Positions 1,348-15,155 of a DNA stretch of 21,839 nucleotides are shown piece by piece. This DNA comes from a virus, in IMG/VR virus record IMGVR_UViG_3300028780_000161, positions 1 through 21,839 of that record. One strand, written 5' to 3'. The notes beneath the pieces are model-generated. The model was not told where the DNA came from, searched no databases, and saw only the letters and a list, made by a program, of their open reading frames with translations. Made by a program: the position numbers and the translations under genes. Within the stretch, counting starts at the first letter, position 1; every line of letters begins with the position of its first letter.

Positions 1348-1506
1348 TGGGGTGCTCTGAGGACCTCCTTATGGGTGTTTCATGCGTTTCACTGTGGTTT
1401 GCGTGCCATCAAAGGTGACCTACTGTTGCGAAAAAATCAGTCTACCCCAATAAGGGGTCTATTTGACATCATTAAGGGGGTTTAATGTGGGGCCAAAAGG
1501 GGCACA
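1348..1506. promoter_or_regulatory. Divergent control region with three AAGGGG direct repeats
   Basis: This gap separates the leftward finger gene from the rightward ribbon-helix-helix gene. AAGGGG occurs at 1452-1457, 1474-1479 and 1497-1502, that is at 22- and 23-bp steps, close to two helical turns. This would place bound proteins on one DNA face. The first copy is also the right arm of a short hairpin (CCCC-5-GGGG, 1445-1457). TTGACA lies at 1463-1468, but no good -10 box follows at standard spacing. The third copy also sits where a Shine-Dalgarno would for ATG 1507. Operator function is inferred. Confidence 0.4.
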
Positions 1507-1758
1507 ATGTGTGTATCATACCAACTCAGGGACAGGGGTAGTCTGTTGCCCTGCAGGGACACGCGCCTTAACATTGGCGATGTGGCTAAGATTCCAACGA
1601 AGTCCCCGAGCGCGCACGCCATCAAGCTTCGGCTACCTGCAGATTTGGTGGCCAAGATTGACGAGGAAGCGGAGAAGCTGTTCCAGCCAAGGAACGGCGT
1701 AATCGTTCGGGCAATAACGGACTTCCTGGAAAGTCGCAATCCCAGCACCAACGGCTAA
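1507..1758 (+). CDS. Ribbon-helix-helix (CopG/Arc-type) regulator
   Basis: The C-terminal half (residues about 37-78) fits a ribbon-helix-helix DNA-binding domain: a beta strand of alternating residues (AIKLRLP), a first helix (ADLVAKIDEEAEKL) and a second helix beginning RNGVIVRAITDFL. Such proteins are dimeric repressors or activators that insert the paired strand into the major groove, and in phages often control their own operon. ATG 1507 gives 83 residues with AAGGGG five bases upstream. GTG 1582 would give a more typical 58-residue protein. It is the first rightward gene, next to three direct repeats that could be its operator (inference). Confidence 0.65.
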   Translation: MCVSYQLRDRGSLLPCRDTRLNIGDVAKIPTKSPSAHAIKLRLPADLVAKIDEEAEKLFQPRNGVIVRAITDFLESRNPSTNG

Positions 1759-1852
1759 AACCGGCCGCCCATTTCCCCGACCACGCGCCGCCACCCGAGA
1801 GATGTGCGCTCTCTCGCGTTTAGGCGTTGGTGTCGTCGTTGGATGGGTTTCT

Positions 1853-2086
1853 ATGATGCTCGATACCGTAACCACGGCCGCCATTGATCGCGCTATCGGG
1901 CGCCAGGCGCAGTTGCAGTTCGACCGTGAACGGTTCGCCTACGTCTGCGGTGAGTCTAAGGAGTTCATCGAGTACATCGAGATGCTGACCGGCGAGCTGT
2001 TACTGGGAAAGACGGCCATACAAGCGGCGTTGGCGTCCGCGATCACCCTGGGCATCGAGATAGGCATTGCCTTGAGGGAGCAGTGA
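1853..2086 (+). CDS. Hypothetical helical protein
   Basis: From ATG 1853 this is a 77-residue protein. An in-frame ATG at 1802 would add 17 residues containing a hydrophobic run (VGVVVGWV). Neither start has a strong Shine-Dalgarno. The body looks alpha-helical and ends in an Ala/Ile/Leu-rich helix (IQAALASAITLGIEIGIAL) that may be amphipathic or membrane-associated. I recognise no family. The stop overlaps the GTG of the DUF3846-like gene, so it belongs to the rightward accessory operon. Confidence 0.5.
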   Translation: MMLDTVTTAAIDRAIGRQAQLQFDRERFAYVCGESKEFIEYIEMLTGELLLGKTAIQAALASAITLGIEIGIALREQ

Positions 2087-2388
2087 CAGACGAACCGCCA
2101 AGTGTGCCGCGCATTTTGCACGCGGACGGGCGGATCGAGTATGTGATGCCAGCCAACGGCAAGATGTTCACGCTGCCGGAGCTGCAAGCAATAGTCGGTG
2201 GCTACATAGAAATGGCGCGAACGAATGGGGAACTGGTGATGATCCTGAATGAAGAGGGAAAGCTAAAAGGACTAAAGACGAACCTCTTTGCCACCGCACT
2301 CTACCGCTACCGTTCAGCTGATTATATTGTGGGCGACGTGCTGCTGGTGGAGCTAGGCTTTCTTGAGGGTGATGACGATGACGGATGA
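2083..2388 (+). CDS. DUF3846-like phage protein
   Basis: This 101-residue protein starts at GTG 2083 in a GTGA overlap with the previous stop. The central part (MPANGKMFTLPELQAIVGGYIE, then a NEEGKLKGL stretch, an N..AT motif and DYIVGDVLLVE) closely follows the pattern of the DUF3846 family. These are small phage and plasmid proteins with conserved LQ..VGG.IE, NEEGKL and D.IvGdv elements. Molecular function is not established for the family. The C-terminus is acidic (GDDDDG). Assignment is by recalled motif pattern. Confidence 0.7.
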   Translation: MTDEPPSVPRILHADGRIEYVMPANGKMFTLPELQAIVGGYIEMARTNGELVMILNEEGKLKGLKTNLFATALYRYRSADYIVGDVLLVELGFLEGDDDDG

Positions 2389-2992
2389 GTCATTCCTGCC
2401 TGAGATAAACGAGATCATCGACCGCTTGGCGCGCCGCATAGAAGCGCGCACCCGCGCCGTTGTAGACGTGGACTTCATCGCTGCCGGCGCCGCCGAGCAC
2501 TGGCAAAAGAATGAAGTGGATCTATACATCTGTGAATCGCCAGCCTGGGCTGAGTTCAAAGAAGCATACGCGGCCGGTGTACTTATGCGGGATCACAGCA
2601 AGACCCATGGCCGATGGAACGGCTACGCCCGGTTCCCTAAGTTGCCCGGTGTTCTCCCAGGGCGTGAGGGGATCTACACATACGTGCCTGTCCATGGCGG
2701 CATAACGTTCTTTCAAGAATGGGCAGATGGGTCAGTCACCTACGGCTTTGACTGTGGCCATCTTTGGTCGCATGAGTCACCTATCAAGGAACTGGGATGG
2801 GTCCGTTTAGAAACAGAGAGCATGGCGCGAGGAATACAAATCGCAGGACGCTTCGAGCGCTTCTATCTCAACGCCGGTGATGATAATGAGAAGAAGGCCA
2901 GGGTGCTCGGTCGCATGGGTAAGTTTCTTCCGGTCGAGGACATCCGATCCAATCTCGGAATCGTGATTAACCTACTCAAAGGTGAGCTATGA
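2378..2992 (+). CDS. Conserved phage protein with GGI-T/FDC motif region
   Basis: ATG 2378 is chosen (204 residues) because GAGGG lies eight bases upstream. TTG 2363 and ATG 2372 are in frame too. The middle (about residues 90-165) contains YTYVPVHGGITF and then a YGFDCGHLW stretch. This pattern recurs in many phage proteins annotated only as hypothetical, with a conserved VHGG-T segment followed by a FDC-H segment. The conserved H, D and C residues could bind metal, but no activity is established. It overlaps the DUF3846-like gene upstream, and its stop overlaps the next start (ATGA). Confidence 0.65.
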   Translation: MTDESFLPEINEIIDRLARRIEARTRAVVDVDFIAAGAAEHWQKNEVDLYICESPAWAEFKEAYAAGVLMRDHSKTHGRWNGYARFPKLPGVLPGREGIYTYVPVHGGITFFQEWADGSVTYGFDCGHLWSHESPIKELGWVRLETESMARGIQIAGRFERFYLNAGDDNEKKARVLGRMGKFLPVEDIRSNLGIVINLLKGEL

Positions 2993-3294
2993 AGGAGCGC
3001 ATCTGGTGGGCGCTGTGCGGCTTCTGCGTGGTATACACGGTTGTCGATTTTACCGTGTGGATTCTTAAGGCGAACGGAATAGTCATCAGGGCATCCTCCT
3101 ATTGGCCTGGGTTATTGTGCGGCGTGGGCGGGTTCGCGATGGGGGCTGTCGTGCGTCGTTTCGAGAAGTTAAGGCGATCCAGAGCCATGTTTAAGAATCT
3201 CGATTACGAGGGCACAGGCTGGCCTCCGCTTACAAGGCCGCTCCCACCGCCGCCGCCTGCACCTCCGCCACCAGTGAAGCGGGAGCAGCCATGA
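2989..3294 (+). CDS. Small membrane protein with proline-rich tail
   Basis: This 101-residue protein shows two hydrophobic segments, about residues 5-28 (WWALCGFCVVYTVVDFTVWIL) and 38-54 (YWPGLLCGVGGFAMGAVV). A basic stretch (RRFEKLRRSR) predicts a cytoplasmic C-terminal half by the positive-inside rule. The tail is strikingly proline-rich (residues about 80-96). It is joined by ATGA overlaps on both sides. The function is unknown. A holin role is unlikely given its place among early accessory genes far from the lysozyme. Confidence 0.6.
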   Translation: MKERIWWALCGFCVVYTVVDFTVWILKANGIVIRASSYWPGLLCGVGGFAMGAVVRRFEKLRRSRAMFKNLDYEGTGWPPLTRPLPPPPPAPPPPVKREQP

Positions 3295-3914
3295 GTACAC
3301 CTGACTGCGCACGGTGCCGCGAAATCCAAGACGGCGGCAGGCAGGTTTACATCGTCAAGGGCGAACTGGGCGAGTATCTCTTCGACGTGCAGCAGGCGCG
3401 AAGCGCTGTCGGAGACGGCCGCCATGTTAGCCAGGTCGTGCCCGACTGGATGATGGAGCGACTGCTGGCGGTCAACGAGGAGCACTGCCCAGAGCATCTG
3501 GACCACGTTGACCCGACAGTTCCCGGCATTCTCGGTCAGCGCCTGGGCGGCGTCTGTCTCATCGACGGCAACCACCGCGCGCGACGATGCATGCGCGACG
3601 GGCTTCCGTTCCACTGCTACATCCTCAGCCTGCCTGAAAGCATGAGTTGCCTCATCTACACGGAGCAGACCGACTTTACGCCTGAGCTGATGGCGCGTGA
3701 ACTGCGCGGCATGCTAATGAACAATCCTCAGATTGAGAAGATGGACATTGTGCTCGACGTGACCGACGACGGAAACGAAAGCGAATGCGAAGCCGCGGTA
3801 AGAGCGTGCCTTACGGAACAAGAAAACGCCCGTCTCGGAATCACTTGCCAGCGAAAGGGAGTACGTCATGAGAAACGTCCGACTCGGCAAAGGGATCATG
3901 GCATTGAATTGTGA
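3291..3914 (+). CDS. ParB/sulfiredoxin-fold-like phage protein
   Basis: This 207-residue protein carries a conserved core around residues 72-112: an HVDPTVPGI stretch, then LIDGNHRARRCMRDGLPF. The DGNHRA-R element resembles the G-(N/H)-H-R motif of the ParB N-terminal nuclease-like fold. Stand-alone phage proteins of this type are known but mostly without proven function. A CxxC (C7/C10) lies at the N-terminus. The C-terminal 60 residues look divergent and basic at the very end. It could bind nucleotide or DNA. The overlap with its neighbours is the usual ATGA type. Confidence 0.6.
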   Translation: MSTPDCARCREIQDGGRQVYIVKGELGEYLFDVQQARSAVGDGRHVSQVVPDWMMERLLAVNEEHCPEHLDHVDPTVPGILGQRLGGVCLIDGNHRARRCMRDGLPFHCYILSLPESMSCLIYTEQTDFTPELMARELRGMLMNNPQIEKMDIVLDVTDDGNESECEAAVRACLTEQENARLGITCQRKGVRHEKRPTRQRDHGIEL

Positions 3915-3939
3915 GAAAGGTGGAAACGTCCATGCCTGA
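3868..3939 (+). CDS. Possible 23-residue micro-ORF
   Basis: A short frame, MRNVRLGKGIMALNCEKGG followed by NVHA, starts at ATG 3868 six bases after GGGAG, a better Shine-Dalgarno than many neighbours have. It spans the junction between the ParB-like gene and the next gene in a different frame and ends inside the following gene. It may be a translated leader or coupling peptide, or chance. No homology can be claimed. Confidence 0.2.
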   Translation: MRNVRLGKGIMALNCEKGGNVHA

Positions 3940-4237
3940 GCTAACAGAGTTGCTGTACTCCACCGACACCAGCGGACCCTTCAAGCTGTACATCCTCGAC
4001 GAGGATGGGTATCACAGCGGCGGCCAGTGGTTCAATTACACGATCCGGTATCCAGACGAGGAGATCACGGTCGCGGCCGCCAAGCAACTTAGCGATGGTG
4101 CGGTGGCCAGGGGCCGGGAGGTGCGTATATGCGACGGCGGCGACTGGCTAGTGTTCCACTCTGTTGACGGCCGCCAGCTTCACCCGGCGCCTGGGATTGA
4201 CTTCTGGGTCAGGTTGAGCGACGGAGGCCAATCGTGA
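3932..4237 (+). CDS. Hypothetical protein
   Basis: ATG 3932 (101 residues) is preferred to GTG 3911 because AAAGGTGG lies about eight bases upstream, although GTG 3911 makes a GTGA overlap with the preceding stop. The sequence reads like a small beta-rich domain (FKLYILDEDGYHSGGQWFNY, then WLVFHSVDGRQLH) with many aromatic and glycine residues and no cysteine cluster. I do not recognise the family. It is coupled to the next gene by a GTGA overlap. Confidence 0.55.
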   Translation: MPELTELLYSTDTSGPFKLYILDEDGYHSGGQWFNYTIRYPDEEITVAAAKQLSDGAVARGREVRICDGGDWLVFHSVDGRQLHPAPGIDFWVRLSDGGQS

Positions 4238-4623
4238 ATTACAGCTTTGGGCCTGAGCGGCATCCGGACTTTCGTTGGTTGCCAACCCCTGTTGGCAAGG
4301 TCTGTAGCTGGTGCGTGGAATCTATCGATGTCCAAGATACTGGCTTTGCGATCCGCACCATGACTCCAGACGGGCGGTGGCGATGTGAGGTTACTTCAGG
4401 GGTGCTGGAGATAGACGGCGGTTTCTATGTGGTGCAGCACTTAGAGTGCCACCTACGCGGGGTTATTGGTAGCGCGGCGCATGTCCAGCGCCGTTGCTCC
4501 TGCTATGTGCCTGGGGCAACGGAAACAGACGATCCAGGCCTAACGCGCCGGCAGGCGGCTGCTCTCGCAGTCGAGCTGTGGCGGGTGAACAATGGCGCGG
4601 TGCAACCGGCTGCTCAAGAATAA
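4234..4623 (+). CDS. Conserved Cys/His-rich phage protein, probably zinc-binding
   Basis: This 129-residue protein begins at GTG 4234 in a GTGA overlap. It contains CSWC near residues 24-27, HLEC-HLR followed by VIGS-H, then a CSC pair, and ends with a DPGLTRRQAAALA segment. The order CxWC, H-ExC-R, GS--H, CSC, (D)PxLTRRxAA matches a small phage family I have seen only as hypothetical. The cysteines and histidines probably form a structural zinc site. Role unknown. It sits in the rightward accessory operon with other zinc-binding proteins. Confidence 0.6.
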   Translation: MNYSFGPERHPDFRWLPTPVGKVCSWCVESIDVQDTGFAIRTMTPDGRWRCEVTSGVLEIDGGFYVVQHLECHLRGVIGSAAHVQRRCSCYVPGATETDDPGLTRRQAAALAVELWRVNNGAVQPAAQE

Positions 4624-4635
4624 CCGAGGAATATT

Positions 4636-4932
4636 ATGCCGCTGACCTTTACGCTTGACGACGATGACGCCGTGCTGCTCATGATGGCTCTGGGCTTTGC
4701 GACGGCAGCTGCACAGATGGATTTTCCGCCGCTGTATCCGAGGATGGTCGAGCTAACCAATCACGTCATATCGAGCGATCCAAGGTTCATTCCCTACGAG
4801 GTTCCGACCGGCGCGGACACGATCCCGTCGATCACCTGCCCGCGCTGCGGGCGCACCAGCTTCAACCGTGGTGATATCAGGAACCGCTATTGCGGCTACT
4901 GTCATGCGTTTCACTCCGGGAGCACCCAATGA
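4636..4932 (+). CDS. Zinc-ribbon protein
   Basis: This 98-residue protein has a C-terminal zinc ribbon with C68/C71 (CPRC) and C86/C89 (CGYC), including the recurring RxTSxN-GDIRNRYCGYCH spacing. The N-terminal 60 residues look helical. GAGGA six bases before ATG 4636 supports the start. Small ribbons with this CPRCG-TS...RYCG-CH layout recur in phage and bacterial genomes without known function. Its stop overlaps the next start (ATGA). Confidence 0.65.
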   Translation: MPLTFTLDDDDAVLLMMALGFATAAAQMDFPPLYPRMVELTNHVISSDPRFIPYEVPTGADTIPSITCPRCGRTSFNRGDIRNRYCGYCHAFHSGSTQ

Positions 4933-5171
4933 TATTCAAAGGGGGAGACCGTGTGCGCGTTCGCCTGTTCGGTGACACCGCCTGGACCCTTGGGAAGATA
5001 GGTATCGCTTCCGCGAACGGCCGGTCCATCGCTGTCGTGCTCGATGACGTCGTGCGCGCTTCCGGTGGAGTGATAGCGAATGTTCTTCCCTTGTTCCTTG
5101 ACGAGGAACAACGCTTCATCTGCCCGGTGACGTCTGGTATCTACGAGATTGAGCCGATAAACACAGCATGA
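4929..5171 (+). CDS. Small beta-rich (SH3/KOW-like) protein
   Basis: ATG 4929 is chosen for its four-base overlap with the previous stop, giving 80 residues. A longer in-frame version from 4890 would overlap the ribbon gene by 43 bp. The N-terminus, FKGGDRVRVRLFGDTAWTLG, then SIAVVLDDVV, resembles the first strands of SH3-like or KOW barrels, where a GD-V-V element starts the fold. This is only a fold-level guess. The stop overlaps the next gene. Confidence 0.5.
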   Translation: MIFKGGDRVRVRLFGDTAWTLGKIGIASANGRSIAVVLDDVVRASGGVIANVLPLFLDEEQRFICPVTSGIYEIEPINTA

Positions 5172-5389
5172 AAAAACAGTGGATGACAGATCAGTGCTGG
5201 GCGTTTCTGTTCGTGGTGACGGGCTGCGTCATGGCGATAATCTGCAAGCACTACGGGCTCACCGATGCTATCGGCGCCGGCATCGTAGGCGGCGGCCTGA
5301 CAGCGCTCACTAAGGCCGAGGCGAAGCAGCAAAACGTCAACGTCGATCATGTGGATACCTTAACCCAGGGCGAGATCACCAAGCCGTGA
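5168..5389 (+). CDS. Small membrane protein
   Basis: This 73-residue protein has a hydrophobic segment at about residues 12-27 (WAFLFVVTGCVMAIIC) and a second glycine/alanine-rich one at about 33-48 (AIGAGIVGGGLTAL), followed by a polar tail. Size and topology would suit a holin-like or immunity/exclusion protein, but it lies far from the lysozyme and nothing proves either role. It is the last rightward gene of the accessory operon. Its stop lies only two bases from the stop of the convergent gene. Confidence 0.5.
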   Translation: MKKQWMTDQCWAFLFVVTGCVMAIICKHYGLTDAIGAGIVGGGLTALTKAEAKQQNVNVDHVDTLTQGEITKP

Positions 5390-5391
5390 GT

Positions 5392-5577
5392 TCAGCCGCA
5401 AACACGATTTGTTCTCGCAGTCTGGAACCGAGCAGTTCGGCCAATCTTCTTGGAGGAGCGAGAAGGCGCTATCCCCATCTTCATCATTGGCAGCCATTCA
5501 ACATATTCCTCTAACTCGGCGAGGGACATCTCGCCCTCATCGTCATCGAACCCATGCACGGTGTCATCGCTCACCAT
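5392..5577 (-). CDS. Hypothetical small protein, last gene of the leftward operon
   Basis: This 61-residue protein has an acidic N-terminal half (DDDEGEMSLAELEEYVEWL) and a basic C-terminal half. The start overlaps the stop of the gene upstream by seven bases. It ends two bases from the convergent membrane-protein gene, leaving no room for a terminator between the two operons. No family is recognised. Confidence 0.45.
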   Translation of the reverse strand: MVSDDTVHGFDDDEGEMSLAELEEYVEWLPMMKMGIAPSRSSKKIGRTARFQTARTNRVCG

Positions 5578-5732
5578 GAGATTGTAGCCTCAACGCAAGC
5601 GACGAACATCCAGTAAAAGCCGCGCCTAAGATCGCGTGCGTAAAAGTACCCGACACTGGCGCCCACCGCGATGACCACCTGTGCGCAGCCAAACACCTTG
5701 CCGGCATTCCAATTAGAAAAGTGTATGTTCAC
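5571..5732 (-). CDS. Small membrane protein
   Basis: A GTG start at 5732 overlaps the stop of the 59-residue gene (GTGA), giving 53 residues. An in-frame ATG at 5762 would overlap that gene by 34 bp. Two hydrophobic stretches are visible, about residues 15-30 (GCAQVVIAVGASVGYF) and 39-50 (FYWMFVACVEAT), with arginines between them, suggesting a small hairpin membrane protein. Function unknown. Confidence 0.45.
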   Translation of the reverse strand: MNIHFSNWNAGKVFGCAQVVIAVGASVGYFYARDLRRGFYWMFVACVEATISW

Positions 5733-5908
5733 GGTTGAGCGTCTTTCACCCAGCAAGTGCAAATCCCATTCTCGCGATACTCTGCACGCTCACTCTCGTA
5801 GGTATCAAGGTCCAATAACACGACCGGCATCCAAGTGCGGCTAAGCGGCCCCCACACGTAAAGGCGCGGCGCGTCTGTAATTCTATTAGCACTTGAGCCT
5901 AATATCAT
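5729..5908 (-). CDS. Hypothetical 59-residue protein
   Basis: This gene reads MILGSSANRITDAPRLYVWG onward to WVKDAQP. A Shine-Dalgarno GAGGTGG lies directly upstream of ATG 5908. The stop overlaps the GTG of the next gene in the GTGA manner typical here, which makes it credible despite its size. It contains a CTC pair near the C-terminus and an acidic middle (LLDLDTYESERAEY). No family is recognised. Placed among short genes at the end of the leftward operon. Confidence 0.6.
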   Translation of the reverse strand: MILGSSANRITDAPRLYVWGPLSRTWMPVVLLDLDTYESERAEYRENGICTCWVKDAQP

Positions 5909-5951
5909 TCCACCTCAATTCACAAAGGGGTGAAGCCGATCCCGATAAATC

Positions 5952-6206
5952 TCAGTGATCCCCGGCCAGCGAGATCCCGCAACCACGAAGAAAGTTGCGC
6001 AGCTCCTCTGCTCGCAGCATGTGGTAATGAAACTCACGGATGAGAGCCTCCTCCGCGGCATCTGAACGCTCGCTTGCGACCCACTCACGGTCCCTGTCTA
6101 TGGCGGCGAGCTCCTTGCGAAGTGCCCGCTCGGCGGCCGATGGATCAACTGCGCCGCGACAGTCGATGTTGAAGCTGCTACGTTTCTTTGTCCTGGACAC
6201 CGTCAT
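5952..6206 (-). CDS. Hypothetical coiled-coil protein
   Basis: ATG 6206 is chosen because a strong AGGAGAG lies five bases upstream, giving 84 residues. A longer in-frame version from 6245 lacks such a site. After a basic N-terminus (VSRTKKRSS) the rest is strongly helical and charged (AERALRKELAAIDRDREWVASE), with a probable second helix at FHYHMLRAEELRNFL. It lies immediately 3' of array A1 on the transcribed strand. Function unknown. Confidence 0.6.
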   Translation of the reverse strand: MTVSRTKKRSSFNIDCRGAVDPSAAERALRKELAAIDRDREWVASERSDAAEEALIREFHYHMLRAEELRNFLRGCGISLAGDH

Positions 6207-6250
6207 GCTTACTCTCCTTTGCGATCTTTGCCAGGTACGCTGCAAGTCTC

Positions 6251-6414
6251 ACGCTTTGCTCGATTCCTATGGCACTCTCTCGGTTCATGGCTCACTCGGC
6301 AGCGTTGGTGCTTTCACCTTGGATGGTTCACTCATACCAAGCTGGTGCTCTCGGCTAGATTGGTTCACTCGGCTTCAGTGGTGCTCGCGACAAAGATGGT
6401 TGACTCGCGTGTGG
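6251..6414 (-). repeat. TIGR-like array A1 (about 4.5 units)
   Basis: On the plus strand, GGTGCTC-type elements start at 6271, 6307, 6344 and 6380 (steps 36, 37, 36). They alternate with GGYTCACTC-type elements starting at 6289, 6325, 6362 and 6398. Read on the minus strand the unit is GNGAGCACCA, 8 variable bases, GAGTGAACCA, 8 variable bases. The variable blocks differ from unit to unit. The array fills the gap between the Lys/Pro-tailed gene, whose stop is at 6415, and the Shine-Dalgarno region of the coiled-coil gene. It shares its loop-type repeat sequence with distant array A5. Confidence 0.85.
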
Positions 6415-7161
6415 TTACTGGACAGCCGAAGCGAGAGGCTTGCCGTAGCCATCGACGCGCTTGGTCTCCTCCGTCTTTCCGCCCTTGCCCTTTTTCGGGA
6501 CCGCAACAGGCTTTTCCTTTGGCTTCGCCGGCTTCAAGTCGAACTCTGGATCGAGCCCAGGGTCCGCGGCGGCCGCCCGGTCCTTTTCGAACTCATCATG
6601 AGGCGGTATTGTTGTCGCTCCGTTTGGTTTCGCCGGCTTCGACGTCTCTGGACCTGGGTCAGTCGCTTGCACGTTCGGGTTTTCGTCGAGCAGGCTTGGC
6701 TGACCGGCCTCGTACAGGATGAAGATCGAGGTATTGAAATTGTCGTCCGCGAACTTGAGGTAGCGTCCCGTGCGTGGTAGATAGGCCGTGAAGGTTAGAG
6801 AAATTGGCGGATGTTCCTCTTCGGAGTCGCGCTCGATCTTGAATGAGCACATCCGCACGGCGCCGAATGTAATCAGCTCCTTCTCGTCCTTCTTCTCGCC
6901 TGGAGGCAGCCCGAAGACGTGCAACAGCATCGGATCGAGTTCCTTGGTGCTGCTGATGGATTTCACCGCATATTCAGGTTTGGCGATGTCTGCGAAAGGC
7001 TCGCCAACCCAGGACGGCATGCCCACGAGTTGATCTCCAGACAGTGGTAAGCGCATCGACAGCTTGAGGCGTTTCTCCCCTGCTGCGTTACATAAAATGG
7101 TTGCGCCATCGATGATGGTCTCGCGGCGATAGCCTCTGAAGAACGTCTCTTCTGCTCTCAT
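6415..7161 (-). CDS. Hypothetical protein with Lys/Pro-rich tail, flanked by arrays
   Basis: This 248-residue protein starts at ATG 7161, eleven bases after AAAGGAC. Residues 1-160 look like a folded beta-containing domain (LKLSMRLPLSGDQLVGMPSW; CSFKIERDSEEEHPPISLTF). From about 165 onward the chain is low-complexity, rich in Pro, Lys, Glu and Ala (KPAKPKEKPVAVPKKGKGGK), presumably disordered. The layout of a folded domain plus charged tail occurs in phage single-strand-binding proteins, but here the tail is basic rather than acidic at its end and I claim no function. It lies between arrays A2 and A1, directly after the Nop-domain gene. This makes it a candidate accessory protein or simply a replication protein. 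Confidence 0.65.
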   Translation of the reverse strand: MRAEETFFRGYRRETIIDGATILCNAAGEKRLKLSMRLPLSGDQLVGMPSWVGEPFADIAKPEYAVKSISSTKELDPMLLHVFGLPPGEKKDEKELITFGAVRMCSFKIERDSEEEHPPISLTFTAYLPRTGRYLKFADDNFNTSIFILYEAGQPSLLDENPNVQATDPGPETSKPAKPNGATTIPPHDEFEKDRAAAADPGLDPEFDLKPAKPKEKPVAVPKKGKGGKTEETKRVDGYGKPLASAVQ

Positions 7162-7210
7162 TTACCCGGTGTCCTTTCGTTCGGTTAGACGTGCGTGTGT
7201 TCGTTATCGA

Positions 7211-7385
7211 AGTAGCTCGCGGTCAATGGCGCTCTCGTTTCATGGTGCTCCCGTTTCTTCTGGCTAACGCTCAAGTCCTGTGGCGCTCCCTATCGAGTTG
7301 GCTTTTGCGCTCTTTGTTTTTGGTGCTCTCTTCGTTGATGGCTGCGCTCGTGAGCTCTGGTGCGTTCGTTTACGTTGGCTGTTTA
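7211..7385 (-). repeat. TIGR-like array A2 (about 4 units), 3' of the Tas gene
   Basis: Plus-strand edge elements GGTGCTC/GGCGCTC/GGTGCGT start at 7244, 7282, 7322 and 7359. Loop elements with variable internal length start at 7262 (GGCTAACGCTC), 7300 (GGCTTTTGCGCTC), 7340 (GGCTGCGCTC) and 7377 (truncated). Degenerate elements precede 7244. The four complete 11-base blocks after the edges all have C at position two and T at the end, matching the conserved flanks in the other arrays. The TAA of the Nop-domain gene (7383-7385) falls inside the last loop element, so array and CDS abut without a spacer. Confidence 0.82.
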
Positions 7386-8321
7386 CCCTTCGAGCAACGT
7401 GGTTTCAGGCATGTCAGGCCGCCGCTCTGCCGTTTTGGTGCGCTCCGTGATGGTGGCTAGTAATTCACGCTCGTAAAGTGCAAGCGCAGCCGGCATGCCG
7501 TCGATCAGCTCGCAGTTCGGCGGCGCGAGGAAGTGAACGTGGTTAAGAAGGTGCGTGAACGGGTATGGGAACGGGGGCATCATCTGAAAGCGGTCGAAGT
7601 ATGCGGCCGCCTGATAGTGAGCAAGGAACAGCTTCACGGCGTAGCGGCGAGCCCGTGCGTGGATCTGCGCTGGCGGTAGCTTTCCCTCTTTGTAATGCTT
7701 GTAGGCATCGGTGGTCTTCTTTACTCTCTCAAGCCCAACCTTTGCCTGCTCAGCAAACATCAGCGCGTCGTTACGCTGCTGCTCAATACCCTTGCGGGCG
7801 ACGTAGACCTTTCCGTACACATCGTTCTCATTGCTCTGCACCTTGACGAAGCTCTCGCCCAGCTTGAACGCCGTGAGCGTTTTCAGCGAAGCGTTGTAAG
7901 GACGCTTCTCACCCTTCAGCCACTTCTTTGTCGGGTCGAGGCCTGCGAAGCTCCAAATGTGGCCAACGGTCGGGCACTTCTCAATGTCGATGTGAGCCAG
8001 AAGCCCGGCGCTGATGACGGGCCCAATTCCGCAGATGCTCTTGGCCCACCGGCTGATCGCGTTCGCGTCGGTCCACTTGTCGAGCGCACGCTTAATTTGA
8101 TTCTCCAGGCCCTCGTTCTGGTCGGCAAGCCACTCGATCACCTGGTGTGGCTCGTTGCCAGCGTTCAGCGTTCGCACCTGGTGGTCCGCGGAGATGCGGT
8201 TTTCTTGAAGCATGTAGTAAGCATCCACAAGGTATCGAGCCTCGCGAACTGACAACGTTGTGGACGCGTTTGCAAGGTCTTTTGTAAGACGCTGCAGAGG
8301 CTCTAAAACAAGTTCGGTCAT
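7383..8321 (-). CDS. tasA: Nop-domain Tas protein, nuclease-less (TasA-like)
   Basis: This 312-residue protein has helical/coiled-coil segments (about 25-95) leading into SICGIGPVISAGLLAHI (95-111) and KCPTVGHIWSFAGLDP (115-130), then VYGKVYVARK (168-177) and HARARRYAVKLFLAHY (221-236). That order matches the Nop domain of Nop5/Nop56/58 and the C-terminal domain of IS110-family transposases. Both bind guide RNA, and both folds are shared by Tas proteins of TIGR-Tas systems. There is no RuvC (DEDD) domain and no HNH, so it corresponds to the nuclease-less TasA class. Arrays lie on both sides (8341-8403 and 7211-7385) with the large one 0.4 kb upstream. Expected role: bind array-derived guide RNAs and direct DNA binding. 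AAGGAG eleven bases before ATG 8321 supports the start. The alternative label, an IS110-like transposase fragment, fits less well. Confidence 0.83.
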   Translation of the reverse strand: MTELVLEPLQRLTKDLANASTTLSVREARYLVDAYYMLQENRISADHQVRTLNAGNEPHQVIEWLADQNEGLENQIKRALDKWTDANAISRWAKSICGIGPVISAGLLAHIDIEKCPTVGHIWSFAGLDPTKKWLKGEKRPYNASLKTLTAFKLGESFVKVQSNENDVYGKVYVARKGIEQQRNDALMFAEQAKVGLERVKKTTDAYKHYKEGKLPPAQIHARARRYAVKLFLAHYQAAAYFDRFQMMPPFPYPFTHLLNHVHFLAPPNCELIDGMPAALALYERELLATITERTKTAERRPDMPETTLLEG

Positions 8322-8340
8322 GGTGTCATTCTCCTTGTGT

Positions 8341-8403
8341 GGTTACCGCTCATCCGTCCTGGTGCTCTAAAGTATCGTGGCTTGCTCAGGTTGCCTGGTG
8401 CTG
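8341..8403 (-). repeat. TIGR-like array A3 (about 2 units), 5' of the Tas gene
   Basis: Plus-strand elements in order are GGTTACCGCTC (8341), nine bases, GGTGCTC (8361), eleven bases, GGCTTGCTC (8379), nine bases, and GGTGCTG (8397). This is the same alternation and spacing as the main array. It occupies the gap between the 78-residue zinc-ribbon gene, whose stop lies in the element at 8379-8387, and the Shine-Dalgarno of tasA just after 8341. Confidence 0.8.
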
Positions 8404-8622
8404 ACGCTTATGCGCATTTGGAAGACGTTTTCGAGGCGCTTCTGGAATAACGTAGTTGCCTTCAGTCCTCCAATGAATACCGTCTCGTGAGGATGTTTTG
8501 GCAACACGTTCAGGCAAGCAAATCGCGCAAAATGGATTCTCTTTTTGCTCAAGCGCCGTACAGGTCATCTCTCGCCCACAATATCGGCACCGTTGAATCC
8601 TAGCCAAAATCAATTCCGCCAT
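8386..8622 (-). CDS. Small zinc-ribbon protein between arrays
   Basis: This 78-residue protein has four cysteines in two CxxC pairs, C12/C15 (CRYC) and C32/C35 (CAIC), making a compact zinc ribbon, followed by a basic tail rich in Arg, Lys and His. GGAGGAAG lies about ten bases before ATG 8622. The last six codons run into array A3, so its stop is inside a repeat. It sits between the main array and the Nop-domain gene on the same strand, which makes it a candidate accessory (for example RNA-binding) protein. Nothing in the sequence shows this directly, and similar ribbons occur elsewhere in this genome. Confidence 0.6.
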   Translation of the reverse strand: MAELILARIQRCRYCGREMTCTALEQKENPFCAICLPERVAKTSSRDGIHWRTEGNYVIPEAPRKRLPNAHKRQHQAT

Positions 8623-8696
8623 ATCGGTCTCACTTCCTCCGTGGCCTTACTGTGAGTTTCGGCAGCTTCGCTTTGGGTTGTTCTACAAAGCCTTCC

Positions 8697-9508
8697 AGTG
8701 CTCGATCAACAAATCTGCTCGCCACTTCGGGTCTTACATCGTGGCTTCTGTCTCTTCATTTGGTCCGCTCATTGATCTTGGTGCTCGCGGCAAATATGGC
8801 TCGCTCGCTGATCTTGGTACTCCCGTCATATCGGGCTCGCTCTTCCTTGATGGCGCTCTTCGTTGCCCTGGCTCGCTCGGGCATGCTGGTGCTCGCAACT
8901 GGTATGGCTCGCTCGTGAACGATGGTGCTCTCTTCTGTTCTGGCTTCGCTCAGATTACCCTTTTGCTGTCCTTCATTGTGGCTGTCGCTCGCTCGCTTTG
9001 TAACTGTCGCTGGATTTGGCTCGCTCCGGCGATTTGGTGCTCCCCGATGATATGGCTGACTGACGCTCACTCACTCTGGCACTCCCGCACGGAATGGCTT
9101 GGCTCACGTTGTATGGCGCTCTCCTGGATTGTGGCTCCGCTCTTCATAAATTGGTGCTCCCGCTGTGAATGACTAACGCTCCCTCACTGTGGTACCCACA
9201 TTACAAATGGCTGCGCTCGCATCCTCGGGCGCTCTCGTCGGTTGTGGCTCGCTCTGGAAACATGGTACTCACAACTATCTTGGCTTTCGGCTCGCATACT
9301 CGGGCGCTCTCGCTGGTTGTGGCTGCGCTCAGTGGCTCTGGTGCTCTTCGGGATCGTGGCTGCGCTCGTGTCCATGTGGTGCTCGCTTGCTTGTATGGCT
9401 GCGCGCTGGTTCTTTGGTGCCCTCACAAGAAACTGACTCGCTCGAACTCACTGGTACTCCCGTCAGATTTGGCTCGCTCTCCTTCATGGGTGCTCTCCGC
9501 CATGCTGG
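8697..9508 (-). repeat. Main TIGR-like array A4 (about 20 units of ~36 bp)
   Basis: On the plus strand, clear edge elements (GGTGCTC, sometimes GGTACTC or GGCGCTC) begin at 8780, 8816, 8852, 8888, 8924, 9036, 9078, 9115, 9153, 9191, 9228, 9264, 9303, 9340, 9378, 9416, 9453 and 9489. Degenerate copies lie near 8961 and 9000 and before 8780. The first five are exactly 36 apart. Later units reach 37-42 because the second element varies (GGCTCGCTC, GGCTGCGCTC, GACTAACGCTC and others). Between them lie variable blocks of nine and eleven bases. The nine-base blocks mostly end in T. The eleven-base blocks nearly all have C second and T last. Removing those conserved bases leaves two 8-base spacers per unit. 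Read on the minus strand: GNGAGCACCA, spacer, GAGCG(n)AGCCA, spacer. This matches the tandem dual-spacer format and 36-nt unit of TIGR arrays. The array begins at the HNH stop codon. Orientation is inferred from flanking genes. Confidence 0.88.
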
Positions 9509-10036
9509 CTAAAAAAAGTCCATTTCTCGCGTCGTCGGAACTGGCGGCGCGCGCAACTGCTTTACTGCTCCCTTCGGCTCGTCGGGAAAGTGCCTGTTCT
9601 TGATCCCCATGGCGCCGGCGCGCAGCCGCTTTGTGACGTTGGCCGCGCCCACCCGTGAGAGCTTCTCTTCGACGAACTTCATTAGCGCGATAAAGTCATG
9701 CGGCGGCATCGCATCTTTCATTTTGTTGCAGTCCGCGCAGCTAACGACGAGGTTGTCCAGATCGGCGCTGCCGCCCAGATCCAACGGGTTATAGTGATCG
9801 GGCTCGAAGCTGATGACATCTACTGGGCGCGGGCAGTAGTGGCAACGCACGGTTCCCAGGCCCACCTTCTCCATCGCCCAGGCGCGGAACTCTGCCAGGC
9901 TAAACGGGAGCTCGCGCCCAGGTCTGCGCAGCTTGCCGGCGCGCTTGCCAGTCTTCCAATACTTCGGCTTTAGGCGCGCGGCCATCGAGCGGCGCTTGGT
10001 CGCGGTTATCTCGTCGAAATCGTGTTTGGAGATCAT
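9509..10036 (-). CDS. HNH endonuclease adjacent to the main array
   Basis: This 175-residue protein contains a full HNH motif: CHYC (C65/C68), DH at 80-81, the N of LDNLVVSC at 95, and CADCN (C100/C103, N104). The cysteine pairs would hold a structural zinc and the DH/N/N residues the catalytic metal. The flanks are basic (residues 11-42), suiting DNA binding. The stop codon abuts the first element of array A4. In TIGR-Tas systems some Tas proteins (TasH) carry a fused HNH domain. Here the Nop protein lacks one, so a separate HNH acting in trans is an attractive inference. Free-standing phage HNH nucleases are also common as homing or packaging enzymes. The start overlaps the 33-residue gene. 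Confidence 0.75.
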   Translation of the reverse strand: MISKHDFDEITATKRRSMAARLKPKYWKTGKRAGKLRRPGRELPFSLAEFRAWAMEKVGLGTVRCHYCPRPVDVISFEPDHYNPLDLGGSADLDNLVVSCADCNKMKDAMPPHDFIALMKFVEEKLSRVGAANVTKRLRAGAMGIKNRHFPDEPKGAVKQLRAPPVPTTREMDFF

Positions 10037-10134: not shown

Positions 10135-10149
10135 CGCGTCTAAGTTGCC

Positions 10150-10181
10150 CGAAATGAGGCTCGGGATGGGGTCTCATTTCG
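10150..10181. promoter_or_regulatory. Perfect 9-bp inverted repeat between dnaB and the HNH gene
   Basis: CGAAATGAG at 10150-10158 is the exact reverse complement of CTCATTTCG at 10173-10181, with a 14-base loop. It lies 17 bases after the dnaB stop in the transcribed direction. There is no U-tract, so a rho-independent terminator is unlikely. It could be an operator, an mRNA processing or stability hairpin, or a block between the replication genes and the array/HNH/Tas segment. Confidence 0.45.
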
Positions 10182-10197
10182 CGCAGCTTCTCCCAAT

Positions 10198-11577
10198 TTA
10201 GTAAAACTCCGGATCCCGCTCCTGCTGGAGCGAATACTGCTGTGGGCCCTGCGGAACCTTCACGGCTCCGCCCGATTCAAACATCAAGCTCGTTGTGTAA
10301 TGAACGGCCAGCTTGCCGGTTTCGCCGTTGCGCTGCTTGGCGATCACCATGTGACCGTCAGGCAGAATCTTTTCGCTGTTGTCATCGATCTCGCGATGAA
10401 TCAACACGACCGTGGAGGCTTCGTACTGGATGTCTCCGGACTGGCGAAGGTCAGCGAGCGTCGGCATCATGTTGCGGCCGCGCCCTGTCTTCTCGGTCAA
10501 CGAGCTGAGCACCAGCACGGCCAGGTGGTCTTCTTTGGCCAGGTTCGCCATCTTCACGCAGCCATCTGTAACAGCGACGTTGCGACTGTCGACGGCGCCG
10601 AAGTTCATCTTCTGCAGATAGTCCACGCCGACGAACCGGGTGCCGTTCTTCCGCTTGGAGATGCGTGCCCTCGAGCAGATCTGCGGCGCCGTGAGGTTCG
10701 TGTCGTCGTCAATGATGAGCGGGAAGCGTGACACCTGCTCCTCTGCTGCCCGCAGGATGGCTAGCTCCGACGATGGGAGCAGTCGCGGAGTGCGGAGCCA
10801 TCCAAAGCGCAACGACGCCACACCGGCCCACAGACGACGCAACATCTGCTCCTTGGTCATCTCCAGCGCGAAGCAGTGTGCCGGCACCTTGTCGAGCCCG
10901 AGGCGAATCAAGGTTTGCACAAGCGCCGATGATTTCCCCTGCCCAGGGCGGCCGCCCAGGACCGCGAGTTCCCCCTCGACCCACCCGCCGATGTGGCTGT
11001 CGAGCGAGTGCAGGCCTGTGGGCAGTCCAAGAAACGGGCGCTCGTCCTCACGCTCCTGGAGTAGCTTTGCGAACTCACGCTGTGACGTTTGCGCGAGCGG
11101 TTCAATGTCCGCAGTGGTGTCCGCGCTGATATGCATCAGCCTGGTGTCCGTGTCGGTCAGCAGGGACTCTACGGTGACGCTTTGCTCCTCCGCCATCGCG
11201 ATAGCGGAATAGCAGACGGTGATCAGCGCCCTGGCCTGTGCCTTTTCCTTGACGATGCGCACGTACTCTTCAATCGACGGACGCCGCGGCAGGCATTCGG
11301 TCAGCGAGAACAGGTACGGCCTGCCGCCAACCGCGTCAACCTCCTGGTGGCTTTGCAGGGCGTCTGTGAGCGTCACGATGTCTATCGCACGGCCGTCAGC
11401 AGCAAGCTCAGCCATGCGCGCAAAAATGCGCTTGTGTGAGTCTAGATAGAAATCGTTATAGGAAATCTGGTCAGCCTGATTATAGGCGCTGACCCCGTCG
11501 AGCAGAACGGCGCCGAGGATGGACTTCTCCGCTTCGATACTTGCGGGACGGCTGCGCTCGAAGGCCTGCTCGTTCAT
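10198..11577 (-). CDS. dnaB: Replicative DNA helicase, DnaB family
   Basis: This 459-residue protein has the DnaB layout: an N-terminal helical domain (SIEAEKSILGAVLLDG, 13-28; DFYLDSHKRIFARM, 42-55), a linker, and a RecA-like C-terminal ATPase. The Walker A is GGRPGQGKS (208-216), the Walker B VGVDYLQ (316-322). The LADLRQSGDIQYEASTVVLI segment (374-393) matches the DLRESG-IE-D-A motif of the family. It would form the hexameric helicase that unwinds the phage replication fork. Length is typical. The start overlaps the stop of the 94-residue zinc protein. The replisome-organizer-like gene slightly upstream is a candidate loader. Confidence 0.95.
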   Translation of the reverse strand: MNEQAFERSRPASIEAEKSILGAVLLDGVSAYNQADQISYNDFYLDSHKRIFARMAELAADGRAIDIVTLTDALQSHQEVDAVGGRPYLFSLTECLPRRPSIEEYVRIVKEKAQARALITVCYSAIAMAEEQSVTVESLLTDTDTRLMHISADTTADIEPLAQTSQREFAKLLQEREDERPFLGLPTGLHSLDSHIGGWVEGELAVLGGRPGQGKSSALVQTLIRLGLDKVPAHCFALEMTKEQMLRRLWAGVASLRFGWLRTPRLLPSSELAILRAAEEQVSRFPLIIDDDTNLTAPQICSRARISKRKNGTRFVGVDYLQKMNFGAVDSRNVAVTDGCVKMANLAKEDHLAVLVLSSLTEKTGRGRNMMPTLADLRQSGDIQYEASTVVLIHREIDDNSEKILPDGHMVIAKQRNGETGKLAVHYTTSLMFESGGAVKVPQGPQQYSLQQERDPEFY

Positions 11578-11858: not shown

Positions 11859-12248
11859 CGCGTCGCGGCCTCCAGATCCAGTGCCTTAAGCACGGCGTTT
11901 GCGGATGCAATATCGTCTTTCCAGTTCGGGCCGGTGTAGACGCATCCGTGAATGTTTGCGGTTTATAAAGACCTCGGCAAGTGAGTCGCATGCGTCAATC
12001 GCTTTGAGTTTGTCAGTGAGCGTCCGCAGGGCTGTCGCGACGTTGTATAGCTGCTCGGCTAGGCGGTCTCTCTTCGCAATGAGTTCGGCAGGGCCCTCGA
12101 TCTCCGCGTGTCGCCCGCATAATTCATACTCCCGCTGTGACAGATGGACATAGCGTCTGACGCCTTGACCCTTTACTTCAGCGCCGCAGTGCCTGCAGCG
12201 GTCAACCTGTGCCGGTACCGGCTGGTCGATCAACGGTGTGGCGTTCAT
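11855..12248 (-). pseudogene. Frameshifted paralog of the small zinc-binding protein
   Basis: From ATG 12248 the frame encodes MNATPLIDQPVP, a CRHCG zinc knuckle, a second Cys/His group (LCGRHAE), and the paralog-like LTDKLKAIDACDSLAEVF. After that it loses similarity and stops at 11886. Shifting by one base near AACCGCAAACATT restores IHGCVYTGPNW followed by KDDIASANAVLKALDLEAATR. That frame ends with a TGA overlapping the ATG of the next gene (11855-11858). The span is 394 bp, one more than a multiple of three. One inserted base thus explains everything. It is either a real disruption, a sequencing error, or a programmed shift. Confidence 0.7.
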
Positions 12249-13177
12249 CGCGTGCCCTCCACGTCTGTGAGCAGTACGTGAACCGGCTTTGGTTTGCTTG
12301 CCTGGTCGTAGTTGCCGTTGAGGATGTTGCCGACGTTCTCCTGGTTCCTGATCAGGAAATCAAAGTTCGCCTTCCATCGTCGGTCGTTGTCACCCATGCA
12401 GAAAGGGCTCTTATGGATCTTGTCAAGCACGGCTTTGAATCGCGCAGGTGTTAAACCCTCGCTGATCCTCGACCGCAGCTTGTCTGCGCGTGCTGGGCTC
12501 AGCGGTAGCTCAACTGCTGGTAGGGCGCCTCGGACCTTGTTCCAGAAAGCTGCATACTCTGTCGGCGTCCTGTTCTTCGTTGGGGGCGTTAGCTGGAACA
12601 GGGCGGGGTCGGCGGCGCCAGCCGTCGACACTCTCTCGGTCTTAGAATGCTTTTTCCTTAGAACAGGCTCCGGCTCAGGCTCAGGCTCAGGAGCAGGCTC
12701 TGGATCAGGAGCAGGAGCAGGAAGTGGCTTGTCCGGGCTTTCTGTGCGCACGGCGTGCCCGTTCTTTTCGTGGGCTTCTGGATATTTTGCCTTCAGCCTC
12801 TGGCGTTCTGGGTCTGAGAGCCTCCGCATACGGGTTGGCTCTCCGTTTGCGTACCGTTCCCCACCTCGCGAAAGCTTGTTATCTGTGGCGTCATCGCTGT
12901 GGATGTGCCAGTCGTGGATGATCAGCCGATGTGTGGGATCGGGCTCAAGCAACCCAGCGGCCAGCAGCGCCTCTACCATTGCTGCTGGGTCGCCGTCATA
13001 GAACATTTCCATCGCGATATCCTCATTGCTTAACCGTCCGATTGCACCGCTGGGCGCTTGCTCGGCAGTCACATGCCACAACGACTCAGCAACACCTAGA
13101 GCGAAGCATGGGCTGATCTGCAGCAGCGTCGCCAGCCGCCTCACCTTGCGGTGCGTGAGTGTTCCTCGCAGCGCCAA
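12245..13177 (-). CDS. Phage replisome organizer / replication initiator-like protein
   Basis: About 310 residues. The N-terminal 100 (residues RKVRRLATLLQISPCFALGV through a SLWHVTA segment and DNKLSR) resemble the winged-helix domain of phage replisome organizers. The C-terminal SPFCMGDNDRRWKANFDFLI, then NVGNILNGNYD, matches the conserved end of such proteins, which may contact DnaB or a loader. A Pro/Glu repeat linker (residues about 152-170) joins the two. The start is TTG at 13177, immediately after the TGA of the ATPase gene and in the same frame. No ATG fits the conserved N-terminus and no strong Shine-Dalgarno is visible, so translation is probably coupled. The stop overlaps the frameshifted gene (ATGA). 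Confidence 0.7.
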   Translation of the reverse strand: MALRGTLTHRKVRRLATLLQISPCFALGVAESLWHVTAEQAPSGAIGRLSNEDIAMEMFYDGDPAAMVEALLAAGLLEPDPTHRLIIHDWHIHSDDATDNKLSRGGERYANGEPTRMRRLSDPERQRLKAKYPEAHEKNGHAVRTESPDKPLPAPAPDPEPAPEPEPEPEPVLRKKHSKTERVSTAGAADPALFQLTPPTKNRTPTEYAAFWNKVRGALPAVELPLSPARADKLRSRISEGLTPARFKAVLDKIHKSPFCMGDNDRRWKANFDFLIRNQENVGNILNGNYDQASKPKPVHVLLTDVEGTR

Positions 13178-15064
13178 TCAAGCACCCGCTGTCGTGAGTG
13201 CGGTTGTGGCGTCGAGTTCCGTAGCCGTGATGCCTTCTGCTTTCGAAAAGGTGTAAAAAGCTGTGCCCTGGGCTTCGAAGGTGCCGGCGATTCCGGTAGA
13301 CGTCAGAATGGCCTGGTCAAGGTCCGACGCAAGAAGCCCCTGGGCGAAGCTCCACTTGTCTTGTTTGTCGAGAATCTCAGCCGCGTCTGCGATGACAAAC
13401 TTCAGCCCGGTCCACATTGCGATTGCAATCGAGAACGCTACGCCGAGTCTGTAGCTCTCCGACTCGCTAAGCTGGCTTGGCATGAGAACGATGTGTGGGG
13501 CGTCCGTCTCGGTGATGCGCAGCTGATACGGCTCAATCGTGAAGGCAAGCGCGTAGCCCCACCACGCAAGCACGGCGTTGACCCTTTCCGTGAAGAGGTC
13601 CAATCGCTCTGCGATGAGCTTCGCCTTGATACCGTTCTGTCCGAAGTAGTCCAACAGCTTCTCAAGCTCGGCCAGGCGTGTTTCAGCAACACCGCGTTCT
13701 TCAAGCTGCTTCGTGTAGACTCGCTGGGCTTCTTCAAGCTCGACGATCTTTACCAGCACCTCCAGCCCGCGAACTACCCTAGCCTTCAGCGCTTCCAGGT
13801 CCGCGTGCAAGGCCTCGAGGGTTTCTGGAAAATCCGGTGGCTGCTGTTCTGGCCCTTCAAACAGGTTGCTGTGCTGTTGGCGTAGATTGGTAAGAGACGT
13901 GGTTACGGCATCCTGCCGTTCTCGCTCGGTCGTGTCCGCTGCAAGCTGGGCAATGGCCCCAGCACTATCGCCGCCTTCCGCGAGTTCCTTTTCTAAGCGA
14001 TGGACGGCAGCGTGCGCATCATTGAGCCGTGTCATGTACGGCGCATACATTGCCTTTCGGGACTCCTCAGTAATAAGCGATTTGCAGGTTGGACAAACGC
14101 CCTGCTCGTCATGCTTGCTGAGCTTTTCGATGGTGGCTTCGATGCTCGCTTGCTCGGCGCGCTCTGTGACCAGCAATGCGCGAATCTCCGCGTGTCGCGC
14201 CTGTAGCTTCGCGGAGGCCTCCAGCTTCTTACGGGCGGCCGCGGTCAGAAGGTGTGGGAAGGCCGCCACCAGTCCGGCTAGGCGGTCGATTTCCAACTGA
14301 CTACGCTGTTGCTGTTCCTTTTGTTGCTGGGCGCCGGCTGCGCGGGTCGATAGAAGTGTGATTTTGCGGTTCACTTCCGCCTGCTGTGTCTGTATCTCCG
14401 TGAGCTTTGCTTTCACGGTGTCCCGACTTCCGGTCAACGGCTCGGGTTCAACAATGGACTTGAGATCACGCAGCTTGCGGTTAACCTCGGTTCTGGCCAT
14501 CGTGATCGACTTGTGTGTCGCTTCGATAGTGGCGAAGAGCGAAGGCTTTTCGATCACAGCAAGGTGGTTTGCTTCGAGCCAGGTCACGACGTCCTTATCC
14601 AGCTCGAGCTTCTCCGGAAGGAGCACACGCGCCAGCAGTGACGCCTGCTCGTGCTCATTCATCCTGATGAATCGCCACGCATTCAGTGTGGCGTTGATAA
14701 CGTCCGGGGCGGCAATCTTCTCCACAAGCCACTCCTGGGCCTGCTTTCCCAGGATTGTGTGGCCCTTGGTTTGTACTTTGAAGTTGCGGCCGGTCGTGCG
14801 ATCGAGTGTGAGCGTAATGACAACGTCGTCGGAGCACTCAAGGGCAATAAGGGCGGTCTGCGCACCTTGCTCGATGAGCTTTTCAAATCCCTTGCCAGCC
14901 TCGTCGGTTACAGCGCAGCGCCCAGATAGCGCCATCTCGACGGCCAAGGCTAGCCCGCTTTTTCCACTTTTGTTGAGACCTCGGATGAAGTTGATTCGCT
15001 CCAGTGCCAGCGTCGTGTGACGGTGGCTGCGAAAGTGTTTGAGTTTAACTCTGTCTATGCGCAT
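13178..15064 (-). CDS. Rad50/SMC-like ATPase with zinc hook
   Basis: This 628-residue protein begins MRIDRVKLKHFRSH, the usual opening of Rad50/RecF/SMC ATPases, with Walker A GLNKSGKS (29-36). Long coiled coils (about 185-320 and 340-475) flank a CPTC zinc hook (324-327). The C-terminal lobe has a signature-like LSESES (532-537) and Walker B FVIADAAEILD (556-566). Such proteins tether or process DNA ends, normally with an Mre11/SbcD nuclease (in T4, gp46 with gp47). No Mre11-like gene is present. Instead the gene just upstream is a Cas4/RecB-like nuclease. Expected role: phage DNA recombination, replication or degradation of host DNA. Array A5 separates it from the nuclease gene. Confidence 0.85.
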   Translation of the reverse strand: MRIDRVKLKHFRSHRHTTLALERINFIRGLNKSGKSGLALAVEMALSGRCAVTDEAGKGFEKLIEQGAQTALIALECSDDVVITLTLDRTTGRNFKVQTKGHTILGKQAQEWLVEKIAAPDVINATLNAWRFIRMNEHEQASLLARVLLPEKLELDKDVVTWLEANHLAVIEKPSLFATIEATHKSITMARTEVNRKLRDLKSIVEPEPLTGSRDTVKAKLTEIQTQQAEVNRKITLLSTRAAGAQQQKEQQQRSQLEIDRLAGLVAAFPHLLTAAARKKLEASAKLQARHAEIRALLVTERAEQASIEATIEKLSKHDEQGVCPTCKSLITEESRKAMYAPYMTRLNDAHAAVHRLEKELAEGGDSAGAIAQLAADTTERERQDAVTTSLTNLRQQHSNLFEGPEQQPPDFPETLEALHADLEALKARVVRGLEVLVKIVELEEAQRVYTKQLEERGVAETRLAELEKLLDYFGQNGIKAKLIAERLDLFTERVNAVLAWWGYALAFTIEPYQLRITETDAPHIVLMPSQLSESESYRLGVAFSIAIAMWTGLKFVIADAAEILDKQDKWSFAQGLLASDLDQAILTSTGIAGTFEAQGTAFYTFSKAEGITATELDATTALTTAGA

Positions 15065-15073
15065 CGTTGCTTT

Positions 15074-15155
15074 CCTTCACTCCTAATCTTTGGTGCTCTC
15101 CAGGATCATGGTTCACTCGTGCAGGTTTGGTGCTCCCTGCCTTCATGGTTCTTCA
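15074..15155 (-). repeat. TIGR-like array A5 (about 2 units), distant from the Tas gene
   Basis: Plus-strand elements: CCTTCACTC (15074, degenerate loop), GGTGCTC (15092), GGTTCACTC (15110), GGTGCTC (15129), GGTTCTTCA (15147). Spacings are nine to eleven bases, as in the other arrays. Both eleven-base blocks have C second and T last. The array fills the gap between the nuclease gene, whose stop (15143-15145) lies inside it, and the Shine-Dalgarno region of the ATPase gene. It is about 6.8 kb from tasA and uses the same GAGTGAACCA loop repeat as array A1. Confidence 0.8.

Follow-up and report, generated by a model that had tools for sequence, protein, structure and literature searches.

We found that the virus record IMGVR_UViG_3300028780_000161, a stretch of 21,839 bases that was analysed at full length and is called the window below, carries a Tandem Interspaced Guide RNA (TIGR) system of the TIGR-Tas kind. 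The system consists of a gene for a 312-residue Tas protein, tasA, and a set of dual-repeat guide arrays placed in the gaps of a phage replication operon (Table 1). That the protein is the TasA of a TIGR-Tas system is practically certain, settled by sequence, fold and array together. As for its role, we propose that the system silences other mobile elements, and for the whole statement, identity and role combined, we estimate a probability of roughly 0.6.

The identity of the protein was supported by several independent comparisons. It scored 193 bits (E-value 5.1e-57) against the NCBIfam model NF052498, TIGR_Tas_endo, with a cut-off of 100, compared to 29.8 against the NCBIfam IS110 model with a cut-off of 140. 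A profile made from eight homologs and compared with the PDB matched TasR (9mty) with E 4e-19, TasH with E 1.2e-10 and the recombinase IS621 with E 7e-4. The AlphaFold2 model, built with 60 homologs, had a mean predicted local distance difference test score of 92, with the lowest values in the array-encoded C-terminal tail. Foldseek placed TasH and TasR chains at the top ranks, and the structural aligner gave Z scores of 17-19 for TasH and TasR, about 12.5 for IS621 and ISCro4, and at most 7.5 for unrelated helical entries. Nop5 chains were listed for this model by neither program, a result compatible with a distant relation. An earlier note, written from the sequence of this DNA, had proposed a TIGR-Tas system with a TasA-like protein, and had named as checks a profile search against the Tas, Nop and Transposase_20 families and a structure comparison with TasR, Nop5 and IS110. 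Both comparisons agreed with the proposal, the one by the strong Tas match and the other by ranking TasH and TasR above IS110. The predicted architecture was also borne out: in the model, a coiled coil of two helices (residues 25-54 and 60-85) is followed by a Nop/IS110-C-terminal-like domain.

The relation to IS110 raises the alternative that the protein is merely a transposase relative, part of an IS110-type transposon or its remnant, with the repeats being unrelated to it. Such a reading would explain why Pfam detected only a weak match to Transposase_20 (E 7.6e-5) and why the PHROG label is 'transposase'. However, Pfam showed no DEDD transposase domain, and the IS621 alignment to the model begins only at IS621 residue 125. 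The NCBIfam and PDB comparisons place the protein with Tas, and regular guide arrays accompany it in dozens of loci. The family match, the fold, the absent DEDD domain and the arrays refute the transposon reading, which we regard as having next to no chance of being right.

The alignments of the model start at its residue 22 on TasH residue 65 and at its residue 26 on TasR residue 112. Therefore, the nuclease domains of TasH and TasR have no counterpart in the modelled protein, which is predicted to be free of a nuclease domain; the Pfam search likewise revealed no nuclease, in keeping with the TasA-like label. The earlier note had counted the adjacent HNH gene as part of the system. In a split version of TasH, the HNH protein would join TasA in trans and cut the targets, and the position of its gene directly next to an array, as well as its retention in the related contig G002, is what one would expect. 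Still, the HNH protein has no sequence similarity to the HNH domain of TasH. Among the 90 TasA loci compared, its homolog was seen at the sequence level beside one other TasA only (that of G002), thus beside 2 of the 90 tasA genes, and a search for a partner protein common to TasA loci found none. The split-TasH candidate was rejected for this lack of conservation and similarity and is highly improbable; the gene is probably an ordinary phage HNH gene outside the TIGR system. A defence-system library gave no match for TasA.

Two observations on TasA genes elsewhere were made by eye. In an Acidobacteriota genome bin (L050, 9977-11401) the translated TasA is apparently fused to a ParB-like domain, and in a Halomonas provirus (L042, about 10820-11300) an apparent dUTPase gene directly follows tasA.

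In the minus-strand reading, an array unit of about 36 nt is made of an edge repeat (GAGYN2-6RCCA), the 8-nt spacer A, a loop repeat (GNGAGYRCCA) and the 8-nt spacer B, which gives 16 nt per guide. The length of the edge repeat varies from 10 to 14 nt within this one locus. Both repeats terminate in CCA, the box C of Faure et al. (PMC12045711). In total, 32 guide units were parsed in the window. The parser score was 75-100 in array A4 and 31-37 in array A1. Base shuffles never scored above 8, and no part of the window's plus strand scored above 5. The alternating two-repeat units described in the earlier note are thus real. All four arrays that it listed, A1-A4, are present; the list was incomplete, with A5, which is located beyond the range given there, and the unit within the end of tasA overlooked. 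The two variable blocks seen in each unit are indeed two spacers, whose details are now corrected to 8 nt each.

Across the units of all relatives, position 4 of the edge repeat covaried with the base before CCA. The U-A combination was observed 146 times against 50 expected, while the C-A mismatch was observed 69 times against 167 expected; the covarying pairs were C-G and U-A. Because these positions covary, we take them as sequence-level evidence of pairing within the edge repeat in the RNA.

The arrays are closely fitted to the gene borders. In the window, A1, A2, A4 and A5 start at or directly behind the stop codon of the gene before them, and A3 starts within the end of a small open reading frame. 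Truncated array starts in the window read TAGCCA, ACAGCCA and TAACCA. Among the relatives, 61 of 146 array starts fell from -12 to +15 nt of the upstream stop codon, compared to 6.8% of random positions. Most arrays end near the next gene, with A3 and A5 reaching the ribosome-binding site of the gene that follows. The tail of the TasA of G002 is encoded by an array unit, as it is in the window. Rfam matched no known RNA family, and promoter and terminator scans found fewer sites than in shuffles; no site set the arrays apart as transcripts of their own.

A relative is encoded in at least 402 public viral stretches, and comparisons between related loci showed a fast turnover of guides. In G002, whose TasA is 82% identical, the corresponding array slots are retained, with zero guides in common with the window; the closest pair of guides differs at 6 of 16 positions, as expected at random. 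A single window guide, GATATGAC/AGATCAGC (unit 8842), is retained with one change in L055 (TasA 66% identical), and its first half occurs in L054 with a different partner. Five related phage contigs (L058, L059, L060, L062 and L067) have common units in shuffled order with re-paired half-guides: 7 A spacers had a new B spacer and 13 B spacers a new A spacer, with about 0.05 expected. The shuffled and re-paired units imply, as read from these sequences, recombination in both repeat types. We also observed letter-identical spacer pairs in L063, L075 and L099. Since the loop repeats that separate the spacers of these pairs vary in several places, the pattern suggests that selection acts on the spacers. 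Half-guides were also seen in swapped order, with 1 mismatch between L075 (unit 6197) and L099 (unit 6539) and 2 mismatches between L054 (unit 6710) and L055 (unit 6616); swapped versions would address the same double-stranded site.

In 60 of 61 TasA loci, the guanine-cytosine (GC) content of the spacers was about 9 points lower than that of the carrier genome, which disfavours an origin of the spacers from the carrier. Spacer composition did correlate with carrier GC (r 0.67), and in the same 61 loci the B spacers were purine-rich relative to the A spacers.

Targets were sought under a model in which spacer A is followed, after a gap of 0-2, by spacer B as its reverse complement. We inferred this order from the 8-nt 3' overhangs reported for TasR and from the C-5 rule. 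None of the 32 window guides matched the phage's own genome. Similarly, for 13 carriers no guide matched its own contig exactly, and near-matches to the own genome numbered 27 compared to 33.5 for re-paired controls; neither the published rule nor the reverse order gave own-genome targets above chance. These results bear on self-regulation, the reading in which guides bind the phage's own genome and time its replication or gene expression. The location in a replication operon would suit such a function; the missing own-contig matches, near-matches no commoner than for re-paired guides, and a guide GC content much lower than that of the carrier make it quite improbable.

The search was also extended to other phages. 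In related TasA phages the counts equalled those of re-paired controls; matches of the expected geometry numbered 131 against 112 (standard deviation 11), within noise. In public viral contigs, the guide common to the window and L055 gave about chance numbers of matches, as did three guides common to L063, L075 and L099. A separate observation concerns about 26 contigs of one family (L203-L269), in which a guide of L063, L075 and L099 is fully matched, mainly with gap 1, where a capsid-like gene starts. We do not claim these as targets: they go back to a single ancestral match inherited by related phages and are not significant alone, and the reverse-order control yielded a comparable extra match.

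A candidate target was found for a TasA provirus (L043/L066) that resides in Acidobacteriaceae KBS 96. The first guide of this provirus, TAAAAGCA/TTCGATTC, matches a site of the same chromosome exactly and without a gap (L462 10962-10977, chromosome position about 6329962). Counted from the start codon of an excisionase-like gene (HTH_17), the site lies 25-40 nt downstream. Because genes for a phage integrase, a prohead protease and a capsid protein adjoin the match, it lies in a second phage-like element. For all five guides of the provirus, 0.034 matches were expected in the KBS 96 genome, and the matching guide had no further match in 237 genomes of the family. The other four KBS 96 guides and three guides of the Halomonas provirus had no match in their host genomes. 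We consider the KBS 96 match no more than suggestive.

The same tests bear on control of the host, in which guides would aim at host chromosomal genes and TasA would repress them, aiding replication or stabilising lysogeny. A nuclease-free TasA suits regulation, the arrays lie within a replication operon, and spacers that track carrier GC while staying about 9 points lower are what AT-richer promoter regions would produce. Conversely, eight guides tested in two provirus hosts gave one match, and that match is inside a phage-like element. Host control is therefore an unlikely reading, although the one of the alternatives that we weigh most seriously.

We propose the following mechanism for the silencing of other mobile elements. 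The arrays in the operon gaps would be transcribed together with the early replication genes. In the presence of TasA the transcript would be cut in the edge repeats, as in a processed relative, to give 36-nt tigRNAs with two 8-nt spacers each. By analogy with TasR and TasH, a TasA dimer would hold one tigRNA, with spacers A and B pairing to opposite strands of a 16-bp DNA site. Bound in this way, the DNA would be bent but stay uncut, because TasA is modelled without a nuclease domain. The most likely effect on other mobile elements in the cell would be a block of their transcription or replication; a non-self aim is supported by the missing own-genome targets and, suggestively, by the candidate target of the KBS 96 provirus. 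The bending could itself be the function, with the TasA-tigRNA complex bending specific sites for phage integration or recombination. Faure et al. proposed this role for TasA (PMC12045711), and the phage has an integrase gene; many diverse and fast-changing guides per phage, however, fit poorly with one or a few attachment sites, and we hold this to be very improbable.

Silencing of rival elements fits best because self-targets are missing, guides turn over fast and the KBS 96 match lies where it does. Its specific form, in which TasA with reshuffled guides binds near early-gene starts of competing phages or satellites and shuts them off, is put forward as tentative. Several results weigh against silencing. 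The window's own guides had no target above chance in any scan, four scans of public phage contigs found no contig family that two guides matched more often than expected by chance, and of eight guides tested on host genomes a single one gave a match, that in KBS 96. Besides, processing and binding are here transferred by analogy from studied relatives, and silencing is a proposal.

The carrier was characterized with the help of a second public contig of the same phage, G001 (58,997 bases). It is identical across window positions 1-8321 and resumes at 9329, lacking only 8322-9328, i.e. mostly arrays A4 and A3; the assembly was probably stopped by the repeats. The phage genome would be about 60 kb and circularly permuted. 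The carrier is a temperate siphophage, as shown by the genes of G001 for a large terminase, portal, head protease, tape measure, J-like tail fibre and integrase. The location in a phage replication operon, given in the earlier note, stands: the DnaB-like helicase, initiator, nuclease and ATPase genes and the arrays share the minus strand. For the 248-residue protein encoded between A1 and A2, Pfam, PHROG and NCBIfam gave no match, and homologs were found in L003/G002 only among the 90 TasA loci. Two further features were observed in the window: an inverted repeat at 10142-10189 that separates the HNH gene from the DnaB gene (17-nt arms, 88% complementary, 14-nt loop), and at 853-1347 a small protein whose C2H2-type zinc finger (Pfam zf-C2H2_4) is unusual for a phage.

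Table 1. Genes and guide arrays of the TIGR-TasA locus and the surrounding replication operon (window coordinates).
Feature	Position	Strand	Evidence and remarks
PD-(D/E)XK nuclease gene	15143-16489	minus	Replication operon
Array A5, two units	15075-15151	minus	Between PD-(D/E)XK nuclease and SbcC/SMC-like ATPase genes, at the nuclease stop
SbcC/SMC-like ATPase gene	13178-15064	minus	Replication operon
Replication initiator gene	12245-13177	minus	Replication operon
DnaB-like replicative helicase gene	10198-11577	minus	Pfam DnaB_C 4e-48
HNH endonuclease gene, 175 aa	9509-10036	minus	Pfam HNH 5.5e-10; directly upstream of A4
Array A4, about 20 units	8761-9511	minus	Repeat parse; truncated edge repeat on TAG stop of HNH gene (TAGCCA)
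Array A3, two units	8340-8405	minus	One unit in end of 78-aa open reading frame; stops before tasA ribosome-binding site
tasA, 312-aa TasA	7383-8321	minus	NCBIfam NF052498, PDB profile match, AlphaFold2 fold
Array-like unit in tasA 3' end	7422-7460	minus	TAGCCA-CCATCACG-GAGCGCACCA-AAACGGCA-GAGCGG; in-frame part of TasA C-terminal tail
Array A2, about five units	7215-7382	minus	Begins at tasA stop codon; final unit irregular
Gene of 248 aa	6415-7161	minus	Between A1 and A2; kept in G002
Array A1, four full units and one truncated	6258-6417	minus	On TAA stop (TAACCA) of 248-aa open reading frame

Faure et al. (PMC12045711) state that it is unknown what TIGR systems target in nature, what TasA without a nuclease does and how arrays change. 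The window locus clearly belongs to a large group of phages through which all three questions can be approached: some relatives carry other guides in corresponding slots, some strains have half-guides in new pairings, and for one provirus a rival element contains a candidate target. The role of TasA becomes testable at the bench because the KBS 96 provirus, residing in a sequenced host, has that candidate. If silencing between elements holds true, the excisionase-like gene of KBS 96 would be the first TIGR target recognized in nature.

This kind of system has been known since 2025; that the arrays are dispersed and overlap with stop codons, and that the edge repeats vary, adds detail and does not make it a new kind. 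The IS110 recombinases IS621 and ISCro4 have a related RNA-binding C-terminal part (Z 12.5), while their catalytic domain is of the DEDD type and they use a single bridge RNA without arrays; the window system has neither the DEDD domain nor the bridge RNA. TIGR-TasR (TaTasR, 9mty) shares the Nop and coiled-coil fold with the window TasA (Z 17.5 over 193 residues) and differs by an N-terminal RuvC nuclease that TasA lacks. The TIGR-TasA system of Flavonifractor plautii, FpTIGR (PMC12045711), is like that of the window in having a solo Nop-domain Tas and a dual-repeat array with 36-nt units. The window departs from FpTIGR in that its five arrays are distributed over the gaps of a single replication operon, its edge repeats differ in length within the locus (10-14 nt), and its spacers have 8 and not 9 nt.

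TIGR-TasH of Salicola phage CGphi29 (SpTIGR; 21kl, 9vzx, 9w04) has the same fold over TasA residues 22-273. For its array, 36-nt tigRNAs were measured experimentally (PMC12045711). TasH has a fused N-terminal HNH nuclease, which TasA of the window does not have, and the loop repeats differ (AAGACAACCA in CGphi29 compared to GNGAGYRCCA in the window). The edge repeats, on the other hand, are nearly alike, AAGCGAGCCA in CGphi29 against GAGCGAGCCA in the window, and both systems have 8-nt spacers and are carried by a phage.

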